Positions 28,273 through 38,139 of a stretch of 38,139 bases of DNA are shown one piece after another. The stretch covers positions 1 to 38,139 of the forward strand of contig RZZS01000020.1 of assembly GCA_009929775.1 (NCBI GenBank), given 5' to 3'. Below the pieces are notes generated by a model. It worked only from the letters and a program-made list of their open reading frames with translations, had not been told where the DNA came from and did no database searches. Source of the DNA: Alphaproteobacteria bacterium (GTDB lineage Bacteria; Pseudomonadota; Alphaproteobacteria; Micavibrionales; Micavibrionaceae). A program made the position numbers and the translations under genes. Position 1 is the stretch's first letter; each line of letters opens with the position of its first letter.

Positions 28273-29295
28273 ATGAAAAGTGTTTACTGTGCTCTGGCAG
28301 CGATTGCTGCAATGTCGCTTCCGGGTGTGGCGGAAGCGCGCGACCAGATCTTCATTGTCGGCTCGTCCACCGTGTATCCTTTCGTGACGGTTGTCGCCGA
28401 GGAGTTTGGCAACAAAACGGATTTCGCTACGCCGATTGTCGAGACCAACGGCACGGGCGGCGGGTTCAAGCAGTTCTGCGAAGGTGTCGGGGAAAAGTAT
28501 CCCGACTTTTCGAATGCCTCGCGTCCGATCAAGGACAGCGAGCGCGAGCTCTGCGCCAAAAACGGCGTGACGGACATAACCGAAATCAGGATCGGCTTCG
28601 ACGGCATCGTTCTGGCGAATTCGCAGGAAGCAGAGCGATACAGGCTGTCGAAGGAGCAGATTTTCCTCGCACTGGCCGAAAAGGTGCCGTCCGGTGGAAA
28701 GCTCGTCGATAATCCGTACACGAAGTGGAGCGAGATCGACCCGGCGCTGCCCAACGAGAAAATCGAGGTTTACGGCCCGCCGACGACCTCGGGAACCCGC
28801 GATGCCTTCGTCGAACTCGTGATGGAACCGGCCTGTGTTGATTTGCCGGAATTCGTGTCGGCCTTTCCGGATGGGAAGGTGCGCGCCAAATCGTGCCATC
28901 TGATTCGCCGGGACGGCGCCTACATCGATTCGGGCGAGGACGACAACGTCATTATCTCCAAGCTGAAAAACAACCCCAAAGCCCTTGGCGTCTTCGGATT
29001 CAGCTTTCTCGACCAGAACCGCAACGTCATTCAGGGCAGCATCGTTGACGGCGCTGAGCCGACATTTGAGAACATTGCCGACGGAACTTACGGCGTTTCC
29101 CGATCGCTGTACGTTTATGCGAAGGACGCGCATCTCGATGTCATTCCCGGTTCGAAGGCATTCGTCGAGGAACTGGTAAGCACCGGGGCGCTCGGCGAAT
29201 ACGGTTACCTTTCGGAGAAGGGATTGATTCCGCTTCCCGAAGACGCGCTTGCCAGCGTTCAGGAAAAGGTACAGGCTGCGATCGGGCAGCAATAA
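28273..29295 (+). CDS. pstS: Phosphate ABC transporter substrate-binding protein
   Basis: This is a 340-residue periplasmic binding protein with a signal peptide (1 to about 22, ending GVAEA). Phosphate-binding motifs are GSSTVYPF (about 31-38) and the Asn/Thr/Gly-rich ETNGTGGGFKQFC. It also has SRPIKDSE and the later loop TTSGTRDAFVELV. It captures inorganic phosphate for the PstCAB permease. The N-terminus is supported by a strong Shine-Dalgarno sequence. It is the first gene of pstSCAB, 27 bases before pstC. Confidence 0.92.
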   Translation: MKSVYCALAAIAAMSLPGVAEARDQIFIVGSSTVYPFVTVVAEEFGNKTDFATPIVETNGTGGGFKQFCEGVGEKYPDFSNASRPIKDSERELCAKNGVTDITEIRIGFDGIVLANSQEAERYRLSKEQIFLALAEKVPSGGKLVDNPYTKWSEIDPALPNEKIEVYGPPTTSGTRDAFVELVMEPACVDLPEFVSAFPDGKVRAKSCHLIRRDGAYIDSGEDDNVIISKLKNNPKALGVFGFSFLDQNRNVIQGSIVDGAEPTFENIADGTYGVSRSLYVYAKDAHLDVIPGSKAFVEELVSTGALGEYGYLSEKGLIPLPEDALASVQEKVQAAIGQQ

Positions 29296-29322
29296 TCTGC
29301 AACGGGGCAGAGGACCGAAGAC

Positions 29323-30312
29323 ATGGACGCAACGAAAGTCCCGATGTCGCCGCAGGGAATGTTGCCCCCGGGTGGGATGCGGCGGTCGAACCGGCTATCC
29401 ATGGCCCGGTTCGACCGCTGGATAACCCGTCTTCTTCTGATAAGCACCAGCCTGTCCATTCTGGTCACGGCGCTGATCGTTTTGTCGGTTCTGTCGGAAT
29501 CGATCCGGTTTTTTAGTGAAGTTTCACCGCTCGAGTTCTTCTTCGGAACGGACTGGGCCCCGCACACGGCCATTCGTGCAGGACAGGCGGGCGGGCCCGG
29601 ATCGTTCGGGGCTGTACCGGTTTTTGTCGGTACCGTTCTCATAACTTTCATTGCCATGGCCGTGGCGACGCCGCTCGGGCTTTACTCGGCGATATACCTG
29701 TCCGTTTACGCGACGCCTCGTTTCCGCCGTGCCGCGAAGCCGGTACTGGAAATTCTGGCCGGGGTTCCGACCGTGGTTTACGGGTATTTCGCGATTCTGA
29801 CCGTCGCGCCGCTGCTGAGGGCGACCGGCGATGTCTTCGGCCTTTCCATTGCCTCGGAGAGCGCCTTGACGGCGGGACTTGTGATGGGAATCATGATAAC
29901 GCCCTTCATCATGTCCCTTTCCGAAGACGTAATGAGCGCCGTGCCGAAGTCTCTTGTCTTCGGCTCCCTTGCCATGGGCGCGACCCAGTCGGAAACCGTC
30001 CGCCTTGTCGTCATACCGGCGGCTCTGCCCGGGATCATCAGCGCCGTGCTGCTCGGGATTTCACGAGGCATCGGCGAGACGATGATTGTCGTCATGGCGG
30101 CAGGGCTCGCCGCGAACCTGACGGCCAATCCGCTTGAGGCCGTGACGACGGCGACCGTCCAGATCGTCACGCTTCTGGTCGGCGACCACGAATTCGCGAG
30201 CGCGACGACCATGTCCGCCTTTGCGCTCGGCTTTGCGCTGGTTATCATGACGCTAATGCTCAATGTTGTCGCACTGGTTATCGTCAAGAGATACAGGGAG
30301 CGCTATGTTTAG
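29323..30312 (+). CDS. pstC: Phosphate ABC transporter permease PstC
   Basis: This is a 329-residue inner-membrane permease. A helix at about 43-63 precedes a periplasmic loop (FFFGTDWAPH), and five further helices follow. The binding-protein-dependent transport motif for contact with the ATPase is SLAMGATQSETVRLVVIPAALPGIISA (EAA loop, about 216-240). It forms the phosphate channel with PstA. Its stop overlaps the pstA start by 8 bases. Confidence 0.93.
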   Translation: MDATKVPMSPQGMLPPGGMRRSNRLSMARFDRWITRLLLISTSLSILVTALIVLSVLSESIRFFSEVSPLEFFFGTDWAPHTAIRAGQAGGPGSFGAVPVFVGTVLITFIAMAVATPLGLYSAIYLSVYATPRFRRAAKPVLEILAGVPTVVYGYFAILTVAPLLRATGDVFGLSIASESALTAGLVMGIMITPFIMSLSEDVMSAVPKSLVFGSLAMGATQSETVRLVVIPAALPGIISAVLLGISRGIGETMIVVMAAGLAANLTANPLEAVTTATVQIVTLLVGDHEFASATTMSAFALGFALVIMTLMLNVVALVIVKRYRERYV

Positions 30313-31651
30313 GCTTGGAAGACAGGCGCGGGTCGCCGCGAAGCGGGTCTATCGCAAAAAGAGTCCGTTCGTCTATAAATCCTACAGCAAGAAAGCCAAA
30401 CACCGCTGGGTCGCCCGGCGACGCAGGCGGGAGAAACACTTTCGCCTGCGCGGTTTAATCGCCGTTCTGATTTCCGCGTTCTTCCTCGCGGGACTTTTCT
30501 GGAGCATCGTCTCCAAAGGCTATACGGCTTTCGTCAAAACCCAGATACTTTTGCCGGTGGAATTCGCTGCAGATATTCTCGACCCGCAAGGAATCGCGGA
30601 GGCTGCGCTGCTGGCGAAGGGCGATTATGCCAGAATTCTTCGGGACTCTTTACAGGAGGTTTTTCCCGAAGTGACATCGCGCGGCCAGATGCGCGAACTT
30701 CAGGCGCTGGTAAGCCGGGAAGCACCGCACAAGCTCCGAAACCGCGTGCTTGAGGATCCGTCGATTATCGGCACGGCGCAAGACATCTGGCTGCCGGTGT
30801 CGAGCGACGTTGACATCGTCTTCAAGAGCCGTCTTTATCAGCTTCCCGAGAAGCGGGGACGGATTTCCGAGGAGCAGGCGGCCTGGATCACCGAACTGGC
30901 GGCGCAGGGTCGCCTTCGGCTCATCTTCAATACGACCTTTTTCAAGAGCGGCGATTCGAGAGAGCCTGAACAGGCAGGGGTTTCCGGCGCGATCGTCGGT
31001 TCGTTTTTCACGATCCTCGTATGCATCGCGCTGGCTTTTCCTCTTGGCGTGGCGACGGCCATGTATCTTGAGGAATTTGCACCTCAGAACTGGTTTACGG
31101 ACCTGATCGAGATCAACATCAACAACCTTGCCGCCGTGCCCTCGATCATCTTCGGTCTGCTCGGCCTGTCGGTGTATCTGAATTTTTTCGATTTGCCGCG
31201 CTCTTCCTCGCTCGTCGGCGGGTTGGTGCTCGCGCTTCTTGTGTTGCCGGTCATTGTGATCGCGACTCGCAACGCGATCCGTGCCGTGCCGAAATCCATC
31301 CGCTTCGCGGCGGCGGCGCTGGGCGCCACGCCCACGCAGGTGGCCTTCCATCATACCTTTATCTATGCCCTGCCGGGGATCATGACAGGCGTCATTCTGA
31401 GTATCGCGCGGGCGCTCGGCGAAACGGCGCCGTTGCTCATGATCGGTATGGTGGCCTTCGTCGCCGACATACCGGGTAGCCTGACCGATCCGGCGACGAC
31501 CCTGCCGGTCCAGGTGTTTTTGTGGGCAAATAGTCCGGAGACCGGATTTGTCGAGAAGACAGCGGCGGCGATCATGGTGCTACTGGCGTTTCTGGTTCTT
31601 GTCAACGCGCTGGCGATTTACGTCCGCCGCCGCTTCGAAATCCAATGGTGA
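30305..31651 (+). CDS. pstA: Phosphate ABC transporter permease PstA with DUF3333-type extension
   Basis: This 448-residue protein is longer than the roughly 290 residues of E. coli PstA. The extra N-terminal part is a very basic cytoplasmic tail (about 1-47), a helix (about 50-72) and a periplasmic DUF3333-like domain to about 225, as in many alphaproteobacteria. The permease core follows, with the EAA loop [25 protein letters not shown]. The frame is open from 30263, but ATG 30305 with AGGGAG upstream and an 8-base overlap with pstC is the better start. Confidence 0.92.
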
Positions 31652-32463
31652 GCTTTATGACTTCTCAGGCCGACATAAAAAACGAAAATATGGAAGACAC
31701 CGACCGTGAAATTCGCATGAAGGCAAGGAACCTCAGCGTTTTCTACGGCGAAAAGCAGGCGCTTTTCGACATCAACCTCGATATCCAGACGAATAAGGTC
31801 ACGGCCCTGATCGGACCTTCCGGGTGCGGCAAGTCGACGTTCATCCGCTGTCTGAACCGCATGAACGACTATGTCGAAGGGTGCCGCGTTGCCGGGAAGA
31901 TCGAACTTGACGGTTACGATATTTACGAAAAGAACGTCGATACCATTCTGTTGCGCCAGAAGGTCGGTATGGTGTTCCAGAAGCCGAATCCTTTTCCGAA
32001 ATCGATATACGAGAACGTTGCCTACGGCCCGAAAATTCACCATCTGGTGTCCGGAAAGGCCGAACTTGACCAACTGGTCGAGCAGACGCTTAGACGGGTC
32101 GGTTTGTGGGAGGAGGTTTTCGACCGCCTGGATGCGCCCGGCACGTCGCTCTCCGGAGGGCAACAGCAGCGCCTGTGCATTGCCCGCGCCATCGCCACCG
32201 AACCGGAAGTCATCCTTATGGACGAGCCGTGCTCGGCCCTCGATCCGATTGCAACGAAGATTGTCGAGGACCTGATCCACGAACTCGCGCAACGTTTCAC
32301 GATCGTGATCATTACCCACTCAATGCAACAGGCAGAGCGGGTATCCGACTACACAGCTTTCTTCCACCTCGGAAAGATCGTGGAATCCGGTAGAACCGAC
32401 CAGATTTTCCACGATCCGGGTAACCAGCAGACGAAAGACTATATTGGCGGGAAGTTCGGTTAA
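31645..32463 (+). CDS. pstB: Phosphate ABC transporter ATP-binding protein
   Basis: This 272-residue ATPase powers PstCA. It carries Walker [10 protein letters not shown], the Q-loop region [22 protein letters not shown] (typical of PstB), the signature [14 protein letters not shown], Walker B VILMDEP and the switch His in IITHSMQQ. The start is either ATG 31645, overlapping the pstA stop, or ATG 31657. No phoU follows: the next gene is on the opposite strand and overlaps the last four bases. Confidence 0.94.
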
Positions 32464-32849
32464 TCTTCAGGACCGGACTGCGACACCTCGCGCTCGCTGC
32501 GCTTCTCGATTTCCTCGATGTGCCTGCAAAGTTCGATGACGTTTTTGCGCAGGGCCGGGCTCTCGATCGCGTTGAACATGCGAAGCAGCCGCTGGGTGTC
32601 GTTGTTGGCCGGTCCGAAATCGTCCTTGGTTCCGAAAAAGTCCGTAATGGGCATTTTCAGAAATTTTGCGATGAGAAAAAGCTTTCCGGCGCTGATTCTG
32701 TTGGCGCCGGTCTCGTATTTCTGGATCTGCTGGAAGGTTACGCCGAGGACTTTGGCGACCTCCTGTTGCGATCTCCCTCTGGAGAGGCGGGCGCTGCGCA
32801 AGCGCTTGCATACCGTTTTCTCAATTTCCTTTAGCGGCATCTGGTTCAT
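32460..32849 (-). CDS. XRE-family helix-turn-helix regulator
   Basis: This is a 129-residue DNA-binding protein. A Cro/C1-type helix-turn-helix occupies about 14-70 ([33 protein letters not shown]). The C-terminal part is helical ([21 protein letters not shown]) and probably dimerises. Similar small regulators are common in alphaproteobacteria and often control surface or stress traits. It is divergent from luxR across 72 bases and could regulate it. A TTGAC-N4-GTCAA dyad just upstream of its start may be its own operator. Confidence 0.85.
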
Positions 32850-32921: not shown

Positions 32922-33683
32922 GTGGCCATAATCCACATGGCAAAGTTGCAGACGATGGATCTTGTCGAGTTCATCCACGCCTCACACGATTGCTGCAGTT
33001 CCCAGGAGCTGACAGACAAGTTCCTTGCCTATCTCTCCCGTTACGGGCTGGACCGGTTTGTCATGAGCGATATGGCTCACGATTCAACGGTTCAGAAGGA
33101 GAACCACCATGGCCTGCTTGTCAATTATCCGGACGAGTGGATGAAATACTATGTGGAGAATCATTACATCGACCACGATCCCGTCTATCAGACGGCGCTC
33201 CGATCCCTGCGACCGTTTACGTGGGAGGAAGTCCAGAATCGCCAGAACGTGACACGCACCGGCATGCGGGTGATGCGCGAAGCCCGCGAGTGCAGGCTCT
33301 ATGACGGCATCGGCCTGTCGATTCATCTGCCTCTTGGACAGGTCATCGGCATGGGATTTGCCGCTTCTGAAAGGGGGGTTTCGCTGGACAGGCGTACGCT
33401 GAGTGAAATATATGCGGCGGCGCACCAGTTCTTCGTCGCTTTTCAGGATATTTCGGGGATCAATTCTCTCGATGGTCAAAAGCACGAGCTGACCAAGCGG
33501 GAGCGCGAGGTTCTCCTTTGGCTCTCCCGCGGAAAGACGAAAGGCGACATCGCCGATATTTGTTGCATGAGTGAATCGGGCGTCAAACGGCACTGTGAGC
33601 GTATTTTTGCAAAGCTGAACGTGCTCAACACCGCTCAGGCCGTCGCCCAGGCACTTCGCATGGGCCTTATTAACCCTTTCTAA
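32922..33683 (+). CDS. LuxR-family acyl-homoserine-lactone-responsive regulator
   Basis: This is a 253-residue quorum-sensing regulator with an autoinducer-binding domain (about 15-175) and a LuxR-type HTH (about 188-250). With an offset of 16 from TraR, every invariant residue is present: Trp-73, Tyr-77, Asp-86, Pro-87, Trp-101 and Gly-129 in the ligand pocket, and Glu-194, Leu-198 and Gly-204 in the HTH. It should therefore bind an AHL-type signal normally. The start is uncertain: GTG 32922, ATG 32937 or ATG 32955, none with a good ribosome binding site; the residue numbers use 32922. It is followed by a hairpin and then the synthase gene. Confidence 0.92.
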   Translation: MAIIHMAKLQTMDLVEFIHASHDCCSSQELTDKFLAYLSRYGLDRFVMSDMAHDSTVQKENHHGLLVNYPDEWMKYYVENHYIDHDPVYQTALRSLRPFTWEEVQNRQNVTRTGMRVMREARECRLYDGIGLSIHLPLGQVIGMGFAASERGVSLDRRTLSEIYAAAHQFFVAFQDISGINSLDGQKHELTKREREVLLWLSRGKTKGDIADICCMSESGVKRHCERIFAKLNVLNTAQAVAQALRMGLINPF

Positions 33684-33704: not shown

Positions 33705-33725
33705 GTGGCCACCTGGCCACTTTTT
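33705..33725 (+). terminator. Rho-independent terminator of luxR, possibly also a luxI operator
   Basis: GTGGCC (33705-33710) and GGCCAC (33715-33720) form a 6-bp GC-rich stem with a 4-base loop, followed directly by TTTTT (33721-33725). This is a textbook intrinsic terminator. The same symmetry (16 bp if the loop edges are counted) lies 46 bases before the luxI start, so a regulator-binding role is also possible. Confidence 0.7.
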
Positions 33726-33771: not shown

Positions 33772-34407
33772 ATGATTGTCGCCGTTTCGATCGAGAATGC
33801 GCATGTGTTCGGAGATATTCTTCCGTCAATTCTTCGTCTGAGGCATCAGGGCTTCAAGGAGCGCCAGAACTATGCCGTGCCCTCGTTCCACGGGATGGAG
33901 TACGATGCCTACGATACGCCCGCGACCACGTATCTTGCCTGGCGCGACAAAGACGGCTCTGTGCGGGGCTGTACACGCCTGTTCCCCACGACTCTTCCCT
34001 ACATGATCGAGGAAATCTGGCCCGGTCTGGTCACGCGCGAATCGCTTCCCAAAGCGCCGGACGTCTGGGAAGCCTCGCGATTCGTGATCGACCGGACGCT
34101 TCCGGTCGAGGAGCGGCGGCGCGTTCATGGCGAACTGCTGTGCTCGTTTCAGGAATTCGGGCTGTCATGCGGCATTCGCTGGATGATCGGAGTTATGACG
34201 CCGCCCATCTGGCGCGCGGTCTTCGTTAACGCAGGGTGGCCCATCGAGTTCCTCGGCAACACGCAGGAACTTGCGCCGCGAGAGCGGGTTTCCGCTGGTC
34301 GCATGGTCATTTCCGACCGGATCCTCGCGGGCCTGAGAAAAACGTTTTCAATTCGCGGAGCAGTGCTCGACGCCTCCGCCTACCAATCGGACCGGATGTA
34401 CGCGTAA
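33772..34407 (+). CDS. Acyl-homoserine-lactone synthase (LuxI family)
   Basis: This 211-residue enzyme makes the quorum-sensing signal from S-adenosylmethionine and an acyl donor. Conserved positions match LuxI/EsaI numbering: Arg-24, Phe-28, Asp-45, Asp-48, Arg-69, Glu-100 and Arg-103. The usually invariant Trp-34 is Tyr here. The stretch YDTPATTYL, then TRLFPTTLPYMIEEIWPGL and VWEASRFVID, resembles the RpaI/BjaI/BraI subgroup, which takes acyl-CoA rather than acyl-ACP. A strong ribosome binding site (GGGAGG) precedes the ATG. The downstream 2-oxoacid dehydrogenase genes could supply that acyl-CoA. Confidence 0.88.
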   Translation: MIVAVSIENAHVFGDILPSILRLRHQGFKERQNYAVPSFHGMEYDAYDTPATTYLAWRDKDGSVRGCTRLFPTTLPYMIEEIWPGLVTRESLPKAPDVWEASRFVIDRTLPVEERRRVHGELLCSFQEFGLSCGIRWMIGVMTPPIWRAVFVNAGWPIEFLGNTQELAPRERVSAGRMVISDRILAGLRKTFSIRGAVLDASAYQSDRMYA

Positions 34408-34423
34408 CGGAAAAGGAGACCAG

Positions 34424-34747
34424 ATGCAGGTTCAGACGAAAGAGATGCACGCCGAGGAACTGGAGAACATCATGCTGTGCGCGCGATGGCTTGTGCATCA
34501 GTTCGAGAACATAAATTGTCACAGTCTCGCCGTGATCTTCCAGAAAGCGATTAACGACGCGGAAGCCTGGATACAGACGATGGTGCGTCACGGAACCATC
34601 CCGCCCGAATTTTCAGAACCGATCAAGGCCCGGGAAGCCGAGCTTATTCACGGCATTCTCGTGAAGTACGCCTCGATTGACGATCCTGAAATGCGCCGGG
34701 AAGCGCTCGACAAAATGCTCGAAGCGACCCGGCGGAAGATCAATTGA
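34424..34747 (+). CDS. Conserved-context small protein of unknown function
   Basis: This is a 107-residue soluble, largely helical protein with no signal peptide and no motif I recognise. It has a central Trp/His-containing stretch (CARWLVHQFENINCHSLAVIFQ is split by two Cys) and a charged C-terminus (EALDKMLEATRRKIN). A strong AAGGAG lies before the ATG. It sits 16 bases after luxI and 7 bases before the E1 gene, so it belongs to the same transcript and may act with the synthase or the dehydrogenase. Confidence 0.75.
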   Translation: MQVQTKEMHAEELENIMLCARWLVHQFENINCHSLAVIFQKAINDAEAWIQTMVRHGTIPPEFSEPIKAREAELIHGILVKYASIDDPEMRREALDKMLEATRRKIN

Positions 34748-34754
34748 GGCCGGA

Positions 34755-36779
34755 ATGAACAGGATCGCTAAAGGATCGCCCGCCGCTTTTGATGCCACGG
34801 AAGTCTTTCCTTGCCCGGATCCGGTCTCGATTTTCCGTGTCATGGCCGTATCGCGCGAGGCGGAGACAAGGGAGAGCATTCTCTTTCGGCAGGGGCGCGG
34901 GCAATTCCATCTTCCGAGCGCCGGGCATGAGGCACTCGCGGGTCTTTCTTCGCTGATCGGGCCGCGTGATTATACCTACTGCTATTATCGCGACCGGGCT
35001 TTGCTGCTTGGGATGGGTGTGCCCCTCTATGACATTGCGCTCGGGTATTTTGCCAAGGCGGAGTCCAGTTCGGGCGGGCGCCAGATGGCCAGCCATTTCA
35101 GCTTTCCGGAAAAGCGGATCATGTCCTGCGCGACGCCGACCGGGCTGCAATGTCTCCCCGCCGCCGGAACGGCTGCAGCGCTGAAGCGCGATGGAAAGGG
35201 AGGAATCGCTCTTTGCTGCATTGGCGACGCTGCCGCCCGGCAGGGGGAGTTTTTCGAAGCGGTCGCCATGGCGTTGCAGGACCGCCTGCCCGTCGTCTTT
35301 CTTATCGAGGACAACGGCTTCGGGGTCAGCACGCGTACCGACCATATGAACCCGGTCAGTCTCGGATTCTTCAATCCGGAGATTGTGCGTGACTTCGATG
35401 GGCGCGATCCACTCGCTCTGCGGAACGACATGCGTCCGGTCCTCGGTGCGATCCGGGCTGGGGAAGGGCCAGCGGTCGTTCGTATCCGTTTCGACCGGCT
35501 CATGTCCCATACTTCGTCCGACGATCACACGCGCTACCGGAGTGCCGGGGAAATCCGGGAAATGGAACGGCGCGATCCGCTTGTGACCTATGGGCGGCAC
35601 CTCGTTGAAAGCGATTTGATCGATGCCCGGGAAGAAGCCGCCATTCGCGAAGCCGCGCAGCACTTCGTGAGGGAAACCTACAGGCGTGCCGAGGCCGCCC
35701 CCGCGCCTGATCCGCAAGGCGCCATGACCAACATTTTCGCCCGGCAGGAAAAACGCCCCGGCGCTCCCGTCCCGCCAGCGCCGGAAGGAACGGAAGAATG
35801 GACGATGGGCCGGGCGTTCAATACGGCTCTTGGTACGATTCTCGAATCGAACCCGAGCGCGCTCGTGTTCGGCGAAGATGTCGAGGACCCGAAAGGGGGC
35901 GTGTTCGGTCTGACGAAAGGATTGTCGACCCGTTACTCCGGTCGCGTAACCAATTCGCCTCTTGCCGAGGCAACGATTGCGGGCATGGCGTCGGGGTATG
36001 GAGTCGCGGGCTGTCTTCCAATTTTCGAGTTGCAATTCATTGATTTTATAGGCCCGGCCTTTAACCAGATCGTGAACCAGATTGCGACGCTGCGCTGGCG
36101 GACGGCGGGCCGCTCGGCCTGTCCGCTTGTAATCTACGCGCCGTGCGGGTCGTTCATATCCGGCGGCGGGCCGTGGCACAGCCAGACCAACGAAAGCTGG
36201 TTGGCCCATTCGCCGGGGCTCAAGGTTTACATGCCCTCGACGGCGGACGATGCGGCCTCGATGCTCCTGCATGCGGCGGCGGGGGCCGATCCGGTCATGC
36301 TTCTGCTTCCAAAAAACCTGCTTCAGAAGAGCATGCCGCGCGAGCCTGCGGCTAGTCTCCATCCGGAGCGGGCGAGGGTCCGCGTTTCCGGCGGCCATGT
36401 CACGATCGCTGCGTGGGGAAACTGCGTCTCGCTTGCGCTCAGGGCGGCGGGGTCCCTTGCGGAGGCGGGCGTGGAGGCGGAGGTGATCGATCTTCCCTCG
36501 ATCGTTCCCTGCGACTGGCAGACCCTGCGGGCTTCCGTCCGCAAGACGGGCAGGCTCGTCGTTGTCCAGGAGGACAACCGCACCTGCAGCTTCGGGCAGG
36601 CAATCATCAGCGAACTTACCGGCGACCCAAAAACATGGGAAAGCCTGTATGCCGCACCGCAACTCGTAACGCGGGAAGACGTCCATGTCGGCTTCAGCGC
36701 CGTCCTTGAGACCGCGGTGCTCCCAAACCACGAAAAAATCATCAGGGCCGTTGAGCAAACTCTGGGAGAAAAACTATGA
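34755..36779 (+). CDS. Fused E1 alpha-beta subunit of a branched-chain-type 2-oxoacid dehydrogenase
   Basis: This 674-residue thiamine-diphosphate enzyme joins E1 alpha (about 1-330) and E1 beta (about 345-674) in one chain. The alpha part has the TPP-binding segment IGDAAARQGEFFEA to EDNGFGVST (GDA in place of the usual GDG). It also has the loop MSHTSSDDHTRYR, whose S-D-D pattern is typical of branched-chain oxoacid rather than pyruvate dehydrogenases. The beta part has FGEDVEDPKGGVFGLTKGL, PLAEATIAGMASGYG and FELQFIDFIGPAFNQIVNQ. It would decarboxylate a 2-oxoacid and pass the acyl group to the lipoyl E2 encoded next. The frame is open from 34677, but ATG 34755 gives a clean start after the preceding gene. 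The stop overlaps the E2 start (ATGA). Confidence 0.87.
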   Translation: MNRIAKGSPAAFDATEVFPCPDPVSIFRVMAVSREAETRESILFRQGRGQFHLPSAGHEALAGLSSLIGPRDYTYCYYRDRALLLGMGVPLYDIALGYFAKAESSSGGRQMASHFSFPEKRIMSCATPTGLQCLPAAGTAAALKRDGKGGIALCCIGDAAARQGEFFEAVAMALQDRLPVVFLIEDNGFGVSTRTDHMNPVSLGFFNPEIVRDFDGRDPLALRNDMRPVLGAIRAGEGPAVVRIRFDRLMSHTSSDDHTRYRSAGEIREMERRDPLVTYGRHLVESDLIDAREEAAIREAAQHFVRETYRRAEAAPAPDPQGAMTNIFARQEKRPGAPVPPAPEGTEEWTMGRAFNTALGTILESNPSALVFGEDVEDPKGGVFGLTKGLSTRYSGRVTNSPLAEATIAGMASGYGVAGCLPIFELQFIDFIGPAFNQIVNQIATLRWRTAGRSACPLVIYAPCGSFISGGGPWHSQTNESWLAHSPGLKVYMPSTADDAASMLLHAAAGADPVMLLLPKNLLQKSMPREPAASLHPERARVRVSGGHVTIAAWGNCVSLALRAAGSLAEAGVEAEVIDLPSIVPCDWQTLRASVRKTGRLVVVQEDNRTCSFGQAIISELTGDPKTWESLYAAPQLVTREDVHVGFSAVLETAVLPNHEKIIRAVEQTLGEKL

Positions 36780-37825
36780 ATGAAGATCACAAGGTTACCG
36801 TCCCCCGCGTCGGCGAGGGCGTCCATCAGGTGAGGATCGTCCGTATCCTCAGGGATACCGGCGACTGGGTCGACGAGGACACCGATCTTCTCGAAATCGA
36901 GACGGACAAGGCGATCCTCGAAGTCCCTTCGCCGGTGTCGGGCGTAATCCGCTCTATATTGTGCGAGGAGGGAGAGCACAAATCCGTGGGCGACGTGCTC
37001 ATGGAAATTGGCGCGCGCGAAGCGGCAGCGAGAGGCGCGCAGCCTCGCACGTTCAACCAGACGCGTCGGCGCGACCGACCGGCAACGGCGGAAGAGAAGG
37101 CCGATGAGCAAGCCGGATCCCTGCCTGCCGAGCAACGCGCGTTGATCGCCCACCTGCAGGACAGCGCCGAGATCGTTATTCCGGCGACTTTGGAGCGTGC
37201 GGTCGACTGGGAGCCGATTTCAAAGGCACGGGTCGCCTGGCGCCGATCGGGCGAGTGTTCGGCGGTGCCATCATCGCTGGAAATCGTTACGTGTGCGGTT
37301 TCACAGGCCATGTTCACGTTCGAAAAATTCCGGGCGAGACTTTCGGATCTCAACGAATTCAGCGTGTCTCCGCAGGCTCTGATCGGTATCGCGAAGGCCG
37401 AAAAAGGCGACGTTCTCGTCACGCCTGCGGTCTCGATCAACGAAGGGGCGGATCTGGAAAGCGTCCGGGACCGCGTGCGGCCTGTCATCCGGAAGATCAG
37501 GCCCCAGGGCGGCTACCATAGTCTTGCGATCAGTGATATGTCGGCGTTCGAGGTTGTGCGCGCCGCACCGGTCGTCGTCTATCCGGCGGTGGCCACGCTT
37601 TTTATCGGGACCCCGCACTGGGCGCTCGATGCGAAGCGCCGCACCATATTCGCGAGCAATTTCGTCCTGACGTTCGATCACCGGATTATGAACGGCGCTT
37701 ACGCGGCTGCTTTCCTGCGAGAAGTCGAGAGAAATATTCGTCGCATCGGTCGCGAGGTCGAACGCAGGTGTGAACAGTCGGTGTGCGGTGCCTCTTCGAC
37801 GGAGGTCCTCAATGTCGGATCGTAA
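36776..37825 (+). CDS. Reduced E2 acyltransferase of the 2-oxoacid dehydrogenase
   Basis: This is a 349-residue E2-like protein. An N-terminal lipoyl domain (about 5-80) has the lipoylation site IETDKAI (Lys-45). An Arg/Glu-rich linker (about 85-125) follows without a clear E1/E3-binding domain, then a short acyltransferase domain (about 140-335). The active-site motif reads DHRIMNG (His-302, Asn-306) where E2 enzymes have DHRxxDG, so the catalytic-site Asp is replaced by Asn. The length is well below the usual 400 or more. It may pass the acyl group to CoA in an altered way or to a different acceptor. It is translationally coupled to the E1 gene and to the next gene, whose start lies inside its 3' end. 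Confidence 0.82.
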   Translation: MNEDHKVTVPRVGEGVHQVRIVRILRDTGDWVDEDTDLLEIETDKAILEVPSPVSGVIRSILCEEGEHKSVGDVLMEIGAREAAARGAQPRTFNQTRRRDRPATAEEKADEQAGSLPAEQRALIAHLQDSAEIVIPATLERAVDWEPISKARVAWRRSGECSAVPSSLEIVTCAVSQAMFTFEKFRARLSDLNEFSVSPQALIGIAKAEKGDVLVTPAVSINEGADLESVRDRVRPVIRKIRPQGGYHSLAISDMSAFEVVRAAPVVVYPAVATLFIGTPHWALDAKRRTIFASNFVLTFDHRIMNGAYAAAFLREVERNIRRIGREVERRCEQSVCGASSTEVLNVGS

Positions 37826-38139
37826 ATCCGACCTTGCCGAGTTGCGGAGTTGCGCGGCTGTGATCGAAGGGATTTTCTTTGCGGCCAACGAACCCGGCAC
37901 GCTCGATCACGAGCGGTTGAACGTTCAACTCGACAGCTACGATCACGAGTACGACCGGATGGTTCGTCGCCGTGAGTTCAATCTTGTCTATCTGATGCAC
38001 GAACTGCTCATCGCGGTGGACGAGGATCCGGGGGATCTCCTGGCAAGCCTCAGCGATCTTGAGGCGGCCTGTCTTTCCTCCTCCATCTACCGCGATCTCA
38101 TCTTCGGTCGTTCCGTTGCGTCGGTGCGGGAAAAAATCG
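37812..38139 (+). CDS. Unknown protein, cut by the right edge of the window
   Basis: An open frame from ATG 37812 runs to the end of the window (109 residues without a stop). It is preceded by a perfect GGAGG (37801-37805) and overlaps the E2 stop by 14 bases, so it is the next gene of the quorum-linked operon. The visible part is acidic and helical (SCAAVIEGIFFAANEPGTL, then YLMHELLIAVDEDPGDLLASLSDLEAACLSS). I do not recognise a family. Confidence 0.7.
   Translation, partial: MSDRKSDLAELRSCAAVIEGIFFAANEPGTLDHERLNVQLDSYDHEYDRMVRRREFNLVYLMHELLIAVDEDPGDLLASLSDLEAACLSSSIYRDLIFGRSVASVREKI

Follow-up and report, generated by a model that had tools for sequence, protein, structure and literature searches.

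BjaI of Bradyrhizobium is an acyl-homoserine lactone (AHL) synthase of the LuxI family that uses isovaleryl-coenzyme A (CoA). In the CinR-CinI-CinS system of Rhizobium and the MmaI-MmaP system of Methylobacterium, the AHL synthase is co-transcribed with a small protein, CinS or MmaP, that binds PraR, as far as the accessible parts of the two reports go (PMC4149787, PMC10790750). Two other kinds of system share an E1 and a lipoyl-bearing acyltransferase, E2: the classical pyruvate (PDH), 2-oxoglutarate (OGDH) and branched-chain 2-oxo acid (BCKDH) dehydrogenases, and starter loading in streptogramin A assembly (virginiamycin M/pristinamycin II type). Pristinamycin II, of the streptogramin class, starts from isobutyryl according to the accessible text of PMC6963833, and bkdAB of S. 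virginiae is known here only from a reference title in PMC9636800. Here, we have examined a locus in which both themes meet, a luxI operon of a Micavibrionaceae bacterium that also encodes a fused E1 and an E2-like protein. It lies in a window of 38,139 nucleotides that is the entire contig RZZS01000020.1 of assembly GCA_009929775.1 (genome G000).

Results

The luxI gene (33772..34407, + strand) encodes an AHL synthase matching Autoind_synth PF00765 with 86.3 bits (cut-off 24). It is followed on the same strand by a gene for a small helical protein of 107 amino acids (34424..34747), by a fused E1alpha-beta 2-oxo acid dehydrogenase (34755..36779; E1_dh 160, Transket_pyr 104 and Transketolase_C 93 bits) and by an E2-like protein with one lipoyl and one acyltransferase domain (36776..37825; Biotin_lipoyl 63, 2-oxoacid_dh 56.5 bits). 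Gaps of 16 nt and 7 nt separate luxI from the small gene and the small gene from E1, E1 and E2 overlap in ATGA (36776-36779), and a purine-rich site stands before each of luxI, the small gene and E2, that of E1 being weaker. The original prediction had described these four genes, with short gaps, translationally coupled E1 and E2 and good ribosome-binding sites. The gene positions, the gaps and the overlap hold and the site before E1 falls short of that description, while luxR, an XRE-type regulator and an open reading frame (ORF) starting at 37812, all treated below, had been omitted.

To examine how often this arrangement recurs, the LuxI sequence was compared with 142 genomes of the order, giving matches in 35 genomes and 37 listed places. 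Thirty of these places were made into loci: the window's own, three that also carry E1/E2 and 26 others (L010-L035), whose flanks were compared over no more than about 1.5 kb, and less where a contig ended. The three linked relatives are L036 in G333 and L038 in G334, which we take to be strain EPB and M. aeruginosavorus ARL-13, respectively, and L037 in G411; the first two are complete genomes of the genus Micavibrio and the last is a metagenome-assembled genome of another family. All three keep the order luxI, small gene, E1, E2, and the arrangement is therefore not due to chance. Identities to the window proteins are 60-65% for LuxI, 52-59% for E1 and 37-44% for E2. Among the 142 genomes these four are the only LuxIs at the level of at least 60% identity, all of them linked to E1/E2, and no E1/E2 match was found within about 1.5 kb of luxI in any of the 26 other LuxI loci examined. 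Thus, the linkage of luxI to E1/E2 is real and conserved, bearing out the idea that luxI is joined in one operon to a dedicated E1/E2. As judged from these sequences, a dedicated acyl supply would be its likeliest reason. With moderate confidence, we favour the reading that Micavibrio-type bacteria have here a LuxR/LuxI quorum-sensing unit equipped with acyl-donor enzymes of its own, for dedicated, probably branched, acyl delivery.

The fused E1 has the E1 domain, the thiamine pyrophosphate (TPP) motif and the catalytic residues of a 2-oxo acid dehydrogenase. G157, D158, D186, N187, H252, E405 and H475 are invariant in the four linked loci; their catalytic or TPP-motif roles are assumed, as are those of the E2 and lipoyl residues given below. 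In a plasmid collection the five best E1 places were all from Streptomyces (46.5-48.3% identity), the next standing at about 34%. The window E1 is 47-48% identical to E1s of streptogramin clusters compared with 31-36% to four other E1s, and in the tree the linked and the Streptomyces E1s are sisters (94/94, just under the starred support level). An E1 profile matched in 4 of 378 genomes of the phylum, G713, G821 and G851 among them, with G713 carrying the ordinary two-subunit type. A 1112-residue ORF in G851 (L085:2785-6123, - strand) fuses an E1, 36% identical to that of the window, with a weak lipoyl-like C-terminal match.

In the three Streptomyces neighbourhoods that were read with their annotation (NZ_CP109590.1, NZ_CP108424.1 and NZ_CP061282.1), the E1 gene lies directly upstream of a megasynthase gene, accompanied by pabB, chorismate mutase and prephenate dehydrogenase in two of the three and by ornithine cyclodeaminase and gamma-butyrolactone regulators in all of them. 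These neighbourhoods fit streptogramin clusters, an assignment made by gene content. The first 1200 residues of each megasynthase run lipoyl, 2-oxoacid_dh, PP-binding and ketosynthase (KS), an arrangement that seems suited to placing the starter on a carrier protein. The Micavibrio-type operons resemble these systems in the fused E1 placed directly before a lipoyl and E2 acyltransferase unit and in the E2 motif DHxxxNG, which is not diagnostic. In contrast, the streptogramin E2 forms one polypeptide with a carrier protein and a KS, whereas here it stands alone and its partner is LuxI; the streptogramin E2 also has a stretch that resembles an E3-binding domain by eye, with no Pfam match. As an observation on the antibiotic systems themselves, the megasynthase N-termini (L076, L077 and L078) suggest that the starter is perhaps loaded directly from the 2-oxo acid via lipoate and not from free isobutyryl-CoA.

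The E2-like protein contains both a lipoyl domain with its lysine and an acyltransferase domain with its histidine, and K45 (the lipoyl lysine), S253, H302 and N306 are invariant in the four linked E2s. The E3-binding (peripheral-subunit) domain PF02817 was matched in none of the four linked E2s and in all three control E2s. Likewise, no PP-binding match was obtained in the window E2, the small gene product or the other three linked E2s, and there is no fusion of E2 to a carrier. An E2 profile run on the phylum gave, among the other matches listed, at most 82 bits (532 for itself) and these covered the lipoyl end, and a search of phage records gave one match of lipoyl length. The structural model of the E2-like protein was of low confidence (mean predicted local distance difference test score, pLDDT, 61), and no conclusion is drawn from it. 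The motif HxxxN is common to the four linked E2s and the three streptogramin E2 domains read; taking this D-to-N change of the HxxxD motif as a loss of CoA transfer was rejected, given that 1eaa, presumably E2p of A. vinelandii, also reads DHRVING. Compared with the classical PDH, OGDH and BCKDH complexes, the operon shares the E1 TPP and E2 lipoyl/acyltransferase architecture and differs in that E1 is fused, the E2 core is very divergent and without an E3-binding domain, and no E3 gene was recognised in the operon.

E1-type TPP enzymes can form acyloins, and the closest E1s serve antibiotic assembly. Both points speak for the proposal that, beside an ordinary AHL, a further signal or metabolite of another class (such as an acyloin or a ketone) comes from E1/E2. 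We regard this as very unlikely, because a lipoyl-E2, which such an acyloin route would not need, is present with an invariant lipoyl lysine in all four operons, and no further biosynthetic enzyme was recognised in the operon.

The window LuxI fits the AHL synthase family both by its PF00765 match and by its catalytic-type residues, D45, D48, R69, E100 and R103 being invariant in all 36 rows of the alignment. These rows comprise 30 LuxIs of the order together with LasI, 3p2f, a Bradyrhizobium plasmid LuxI, 5w8a (which we take to be BjaI), 6wns and an Aminobacter plasmid LuxI. In the resulting tree, the four E1/E2-linked LuxIs form one clade (95/91) and all 30 LuxIs of the order are separated from the six references by a branch supported at 94/98, with long branches and few references, while 5w8a clusters with 6wns and L080 (98/95). 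This placement bears on the claim of the original prediction that the synthase resembles the acyl-CoA-using, BjaI-like subgroup, and on the corresponding explanation, in which a LuxI of BjaI type uses isovaleryl-CoA from a classical branched-chain dehydrogenase complex. In favour of this explanation, the best match of the window LuxI as a single sequence in the PDB is 5w8a (E 2.8e-18), and the window LuxI lacks the charge of the ACP (acyl carrier protein) loop. With a profile of the four linked rows, however, LasI (83.1 bits) outscores 5w8a (80.4 bits). The equivalent of LasI R154, at position 9 of the ACP loop, is conserved in ACP-using LuxIs according to the accessible part of PMC4234381. 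G411 and ARL-13 have R at this position, the window (N153) and EPB have N. The tree separation and this mixed residue leave the acyl-CoA assignment unsupported, and E2 is not of the classical kind, having no E3-binding domain in any of the four operons, so that this explanation seems to us unlikely. With BjaI the locus shares the LuxI family and, possibly, the use of a short branched acyl group that stems from a branched 2-oxo acid; what sets it apart is the LuxI clade and the presence of E1/E2 within the luxI operon.

The small gene, which had been described simply as unknown and located behind luxI, can now be given a probable role. Its product has no Pfam or NCBIfam match and is predicted to fold into four helices (mean pLDDT 77); a Foldseek search with the model gave nothing at E <= 0.001. 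Class-wide searches returned 1 of 289, the query itself, and 2 of 385, of which one was again the query and the other a weak match. All 26 other luxI loci have an ORF of 55-121 amino acids beginning near the luxI end, that of L034 resembling noise, and most of these show by eye a helical pattern with 'xYLxxEA' in common; similarity of the small-protein profile to the 26 ORFs is marginal (best E 0.0017). Since an ORF of this kind follows luxI almost throughout the order, we take the small gene, by analogy of position, to be probably a CinS/MmaP-like regulator outside the acyl chemistry. A part in acyl chemistry, for instance as an ACP, was considered and rejected: there is no PP-binding match, a conserved Ser is missing where one would be expected, and luxIs that have no E1/E2 are followed by similar ORFs. 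The locus thus resembles the CinS and MmaP systems in a small ORF directly behind luxI and in an XRE-type regulator, which here lies beside luxR. It differs from them in the E1/E2 genes behind the small gene, and its likeness to CinS/MmaP is drawn from position. More generally, these fast-evolving helical ORFs suggest that a CinS/MmaP-like partner is widespread behind luxI in Micavibrio relatives.

Upstream of luxI lies a gene for a LuxR-type regulator (32922..33683, + strand; Autoind_bind 86 bits, GerE 53 bits), and divergent from it one for an XRE/HTH_3 regulator of PraR/HipB-like type (32460..32849, - strand; HTH_3 53.8 bits, cut-off 23). Relatives of luxR adjoin luxI in EPB and ARL-13, and no LuxR match was found beside luxI in G411. 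The ARL-13 luxR (L038:12025-12757, - strand) is split over two overlapping frames, by a frameshift or a sequencing error, and the EPB copy is intact. Matches to the XRE regulator by tblastn adjoin luxI in ARL-13 and in 9 of the 26 unlinked loci. Between luxR and luxI, TGGCCACCTGGCCA (33706..33719, + strand) follows the pattern TGGCC-N4-RGCCA, which occurs upstream of luxI in all four linked operons and in none of the 250-bp regions upstream of luxI in the 26 other loci. Since the pattern was derived post hoc, by inspecting these same four operons, it is a candidate lux box only. As a marker of a wider regulon it was discarded: in ARL-13 its genome-wide count is only modestly above that of a reversed-pattern control, and in the other three genomes it is no higher.

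To see which other dehydrogenases accompany the operon, E1_dh and 2-oxoacid_dh profiles were scanned in the four linked genomes, the sets being named from scores, gene lengths and pairing. In the window genome, EPB and ARL-13 the remaining matches are PDH-like, OGDH-like or weak matches to TPP enzymes; no housekeeping branched-chain dehydrogenase was therefore found in these three. G411 also has a PDH-like and an OGDH-like set besides that of the operon, with one further E1_dh match considered in the Discussion. A ketol-acid reductoisomerase match is present in the window genome and absent from EPB, ARL-13 and G411, and Aminotran_4 enzymes occur in all four. ARL-13 is reported to be without valine and isoleucine pathways in the accessible text of its genome paper (PMC3189940). 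In the three genomes with no reductoisomerase match, a branched acyl precursor would therefore come from outside amino acids, such as those of prey.

The same dependence, with branched-chain amino acids coming from outside in three of the four genomes, would suit E1/E2 genes that are quorum-controlled targets, serving for example prey branched-chain amino acid use or branched fatty acids, with LuxI making an ordinary AHL from fatty acid synthesis. The position of E1/E2 behind luxI in one operon with a candidate lux box agrees with such a role, and in two of the four LuxIs the ACP loop retains the positive charge that goes with ACP use. Nevertheless, no other catabolic gene, such as E3 or acyl-CoA dehydrogenase, was recognised beside E1/E2 (the ORFs beyond E2 being read by eye only), only one clade of LuxIs shows the linkage, and the nearest E1s are biosynthetic. 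We consider this alternative possible, if on the whole improbable.

The remaining features of the window are more loosely related to the operon. The ORF that overlaps the end of E2 (37812..38139, + strand) is incomplete at the contig end and has no Pfam match; a relative stands behind E2 in ARL-13 (30% over 57 amino acids, E 5e-7). A phosphate-uptake-like set, so named by reading (a substrate-binding protein, two permeases and an ATPase with an ABC_tran match), precedes the quorum-sensing genes at 28273-32463. Elsewhere in the window genome there is a second, weak LuxI-family match of 38 bits (G000:C67:18019-18423); in the 18-kb stretch around it (L004), LuxI alone among the window proteins matched, and no LuxR match was found. 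Scans of viral contigs with LuxI and E1 queries led nowhere.

Discussion

We have found that in a small clade of LuxIs the synthase gene is linked to E1/E2 genes, and we favour the view that these supply its acyl group. In such a scheme, LuxR with the signal would activate the operon from the TGGCC-N4-RGCCA palindrome, and E1 would decarboxylate a 2-oxo acid, which is most likely branched and derived from valine or leucine. The acyl group would be loaded by E1 on the lipoyl-lysine of the E2-like protein, whose E2 domain would transfer it to the phosphopantetheine thiol of CoA or ACP. LuxI would then join it to S-adenosylmethionine (SAM) to give a short, probably branched, AHL. As E2 has no E3-binding domain, we propose that the lipoyl group would be reoxidised by the general E3 of the cell. 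The small gene would form a CinS-type regulatory output in its own right.

Several points weigh against a dedicated acyl supply. The catalytic domain of E2 has diverged greatly (50-95 bits versus about 290 for a housekeeping E2), which together with the missing E3-binding domain makes its turnover uncertain, and the N of HxxxN is no sign of a changed acceptor, being present in the solved E2p 1eaa as well. G411 has an extra E1_dh match (C6, 98.6 bits) and may therefore own a second dehydrogenase of branched-chain type. The evidence comes from only four loci of three genera, in which E1/E2 come last in the operon, as quorum-controlled targets would, and linked genes could be co-inherited without a shared product. 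Finally, RNA-Seq of ARL-13 showed no LuxI expression, according to the accessible text of PMC3189940.

A bolder possibility, to which we give little credence, is that an E1/E2 of the antibiotic starter-loading type was recruited to quorum sensing, with the lipoyl-E2 passing the acyl group to ACP or directly to LuxI and no acyl-CoA involved. The signal would then be built from prey amino acids in predators without valine and isoleucine synthesis, and, if this is true, it would report feeding besides density.

In the accessible text of the ARL-13 genome paper, where one LuxI is reported and its role is called unclear, the word 'dehydrogenase' does not occur (PMC3189940). Searches of the literature on Micavibrio with LuxI or quorum sensing, and on LuxI with ketoacid dehydrogenase or gene neighbourhood, gave no title or abstract start describing such an operon. 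The operon offers a concrete guess at the signal chemistry of a bacterial predator. If the favoured reading is true, the AHL synthase would be served by acyl-making enzymes encoded beside it in one operon, tying a quorum synthase to a type of E1/E2 otherwise met, in this analysis, only in streptogramin assembly.

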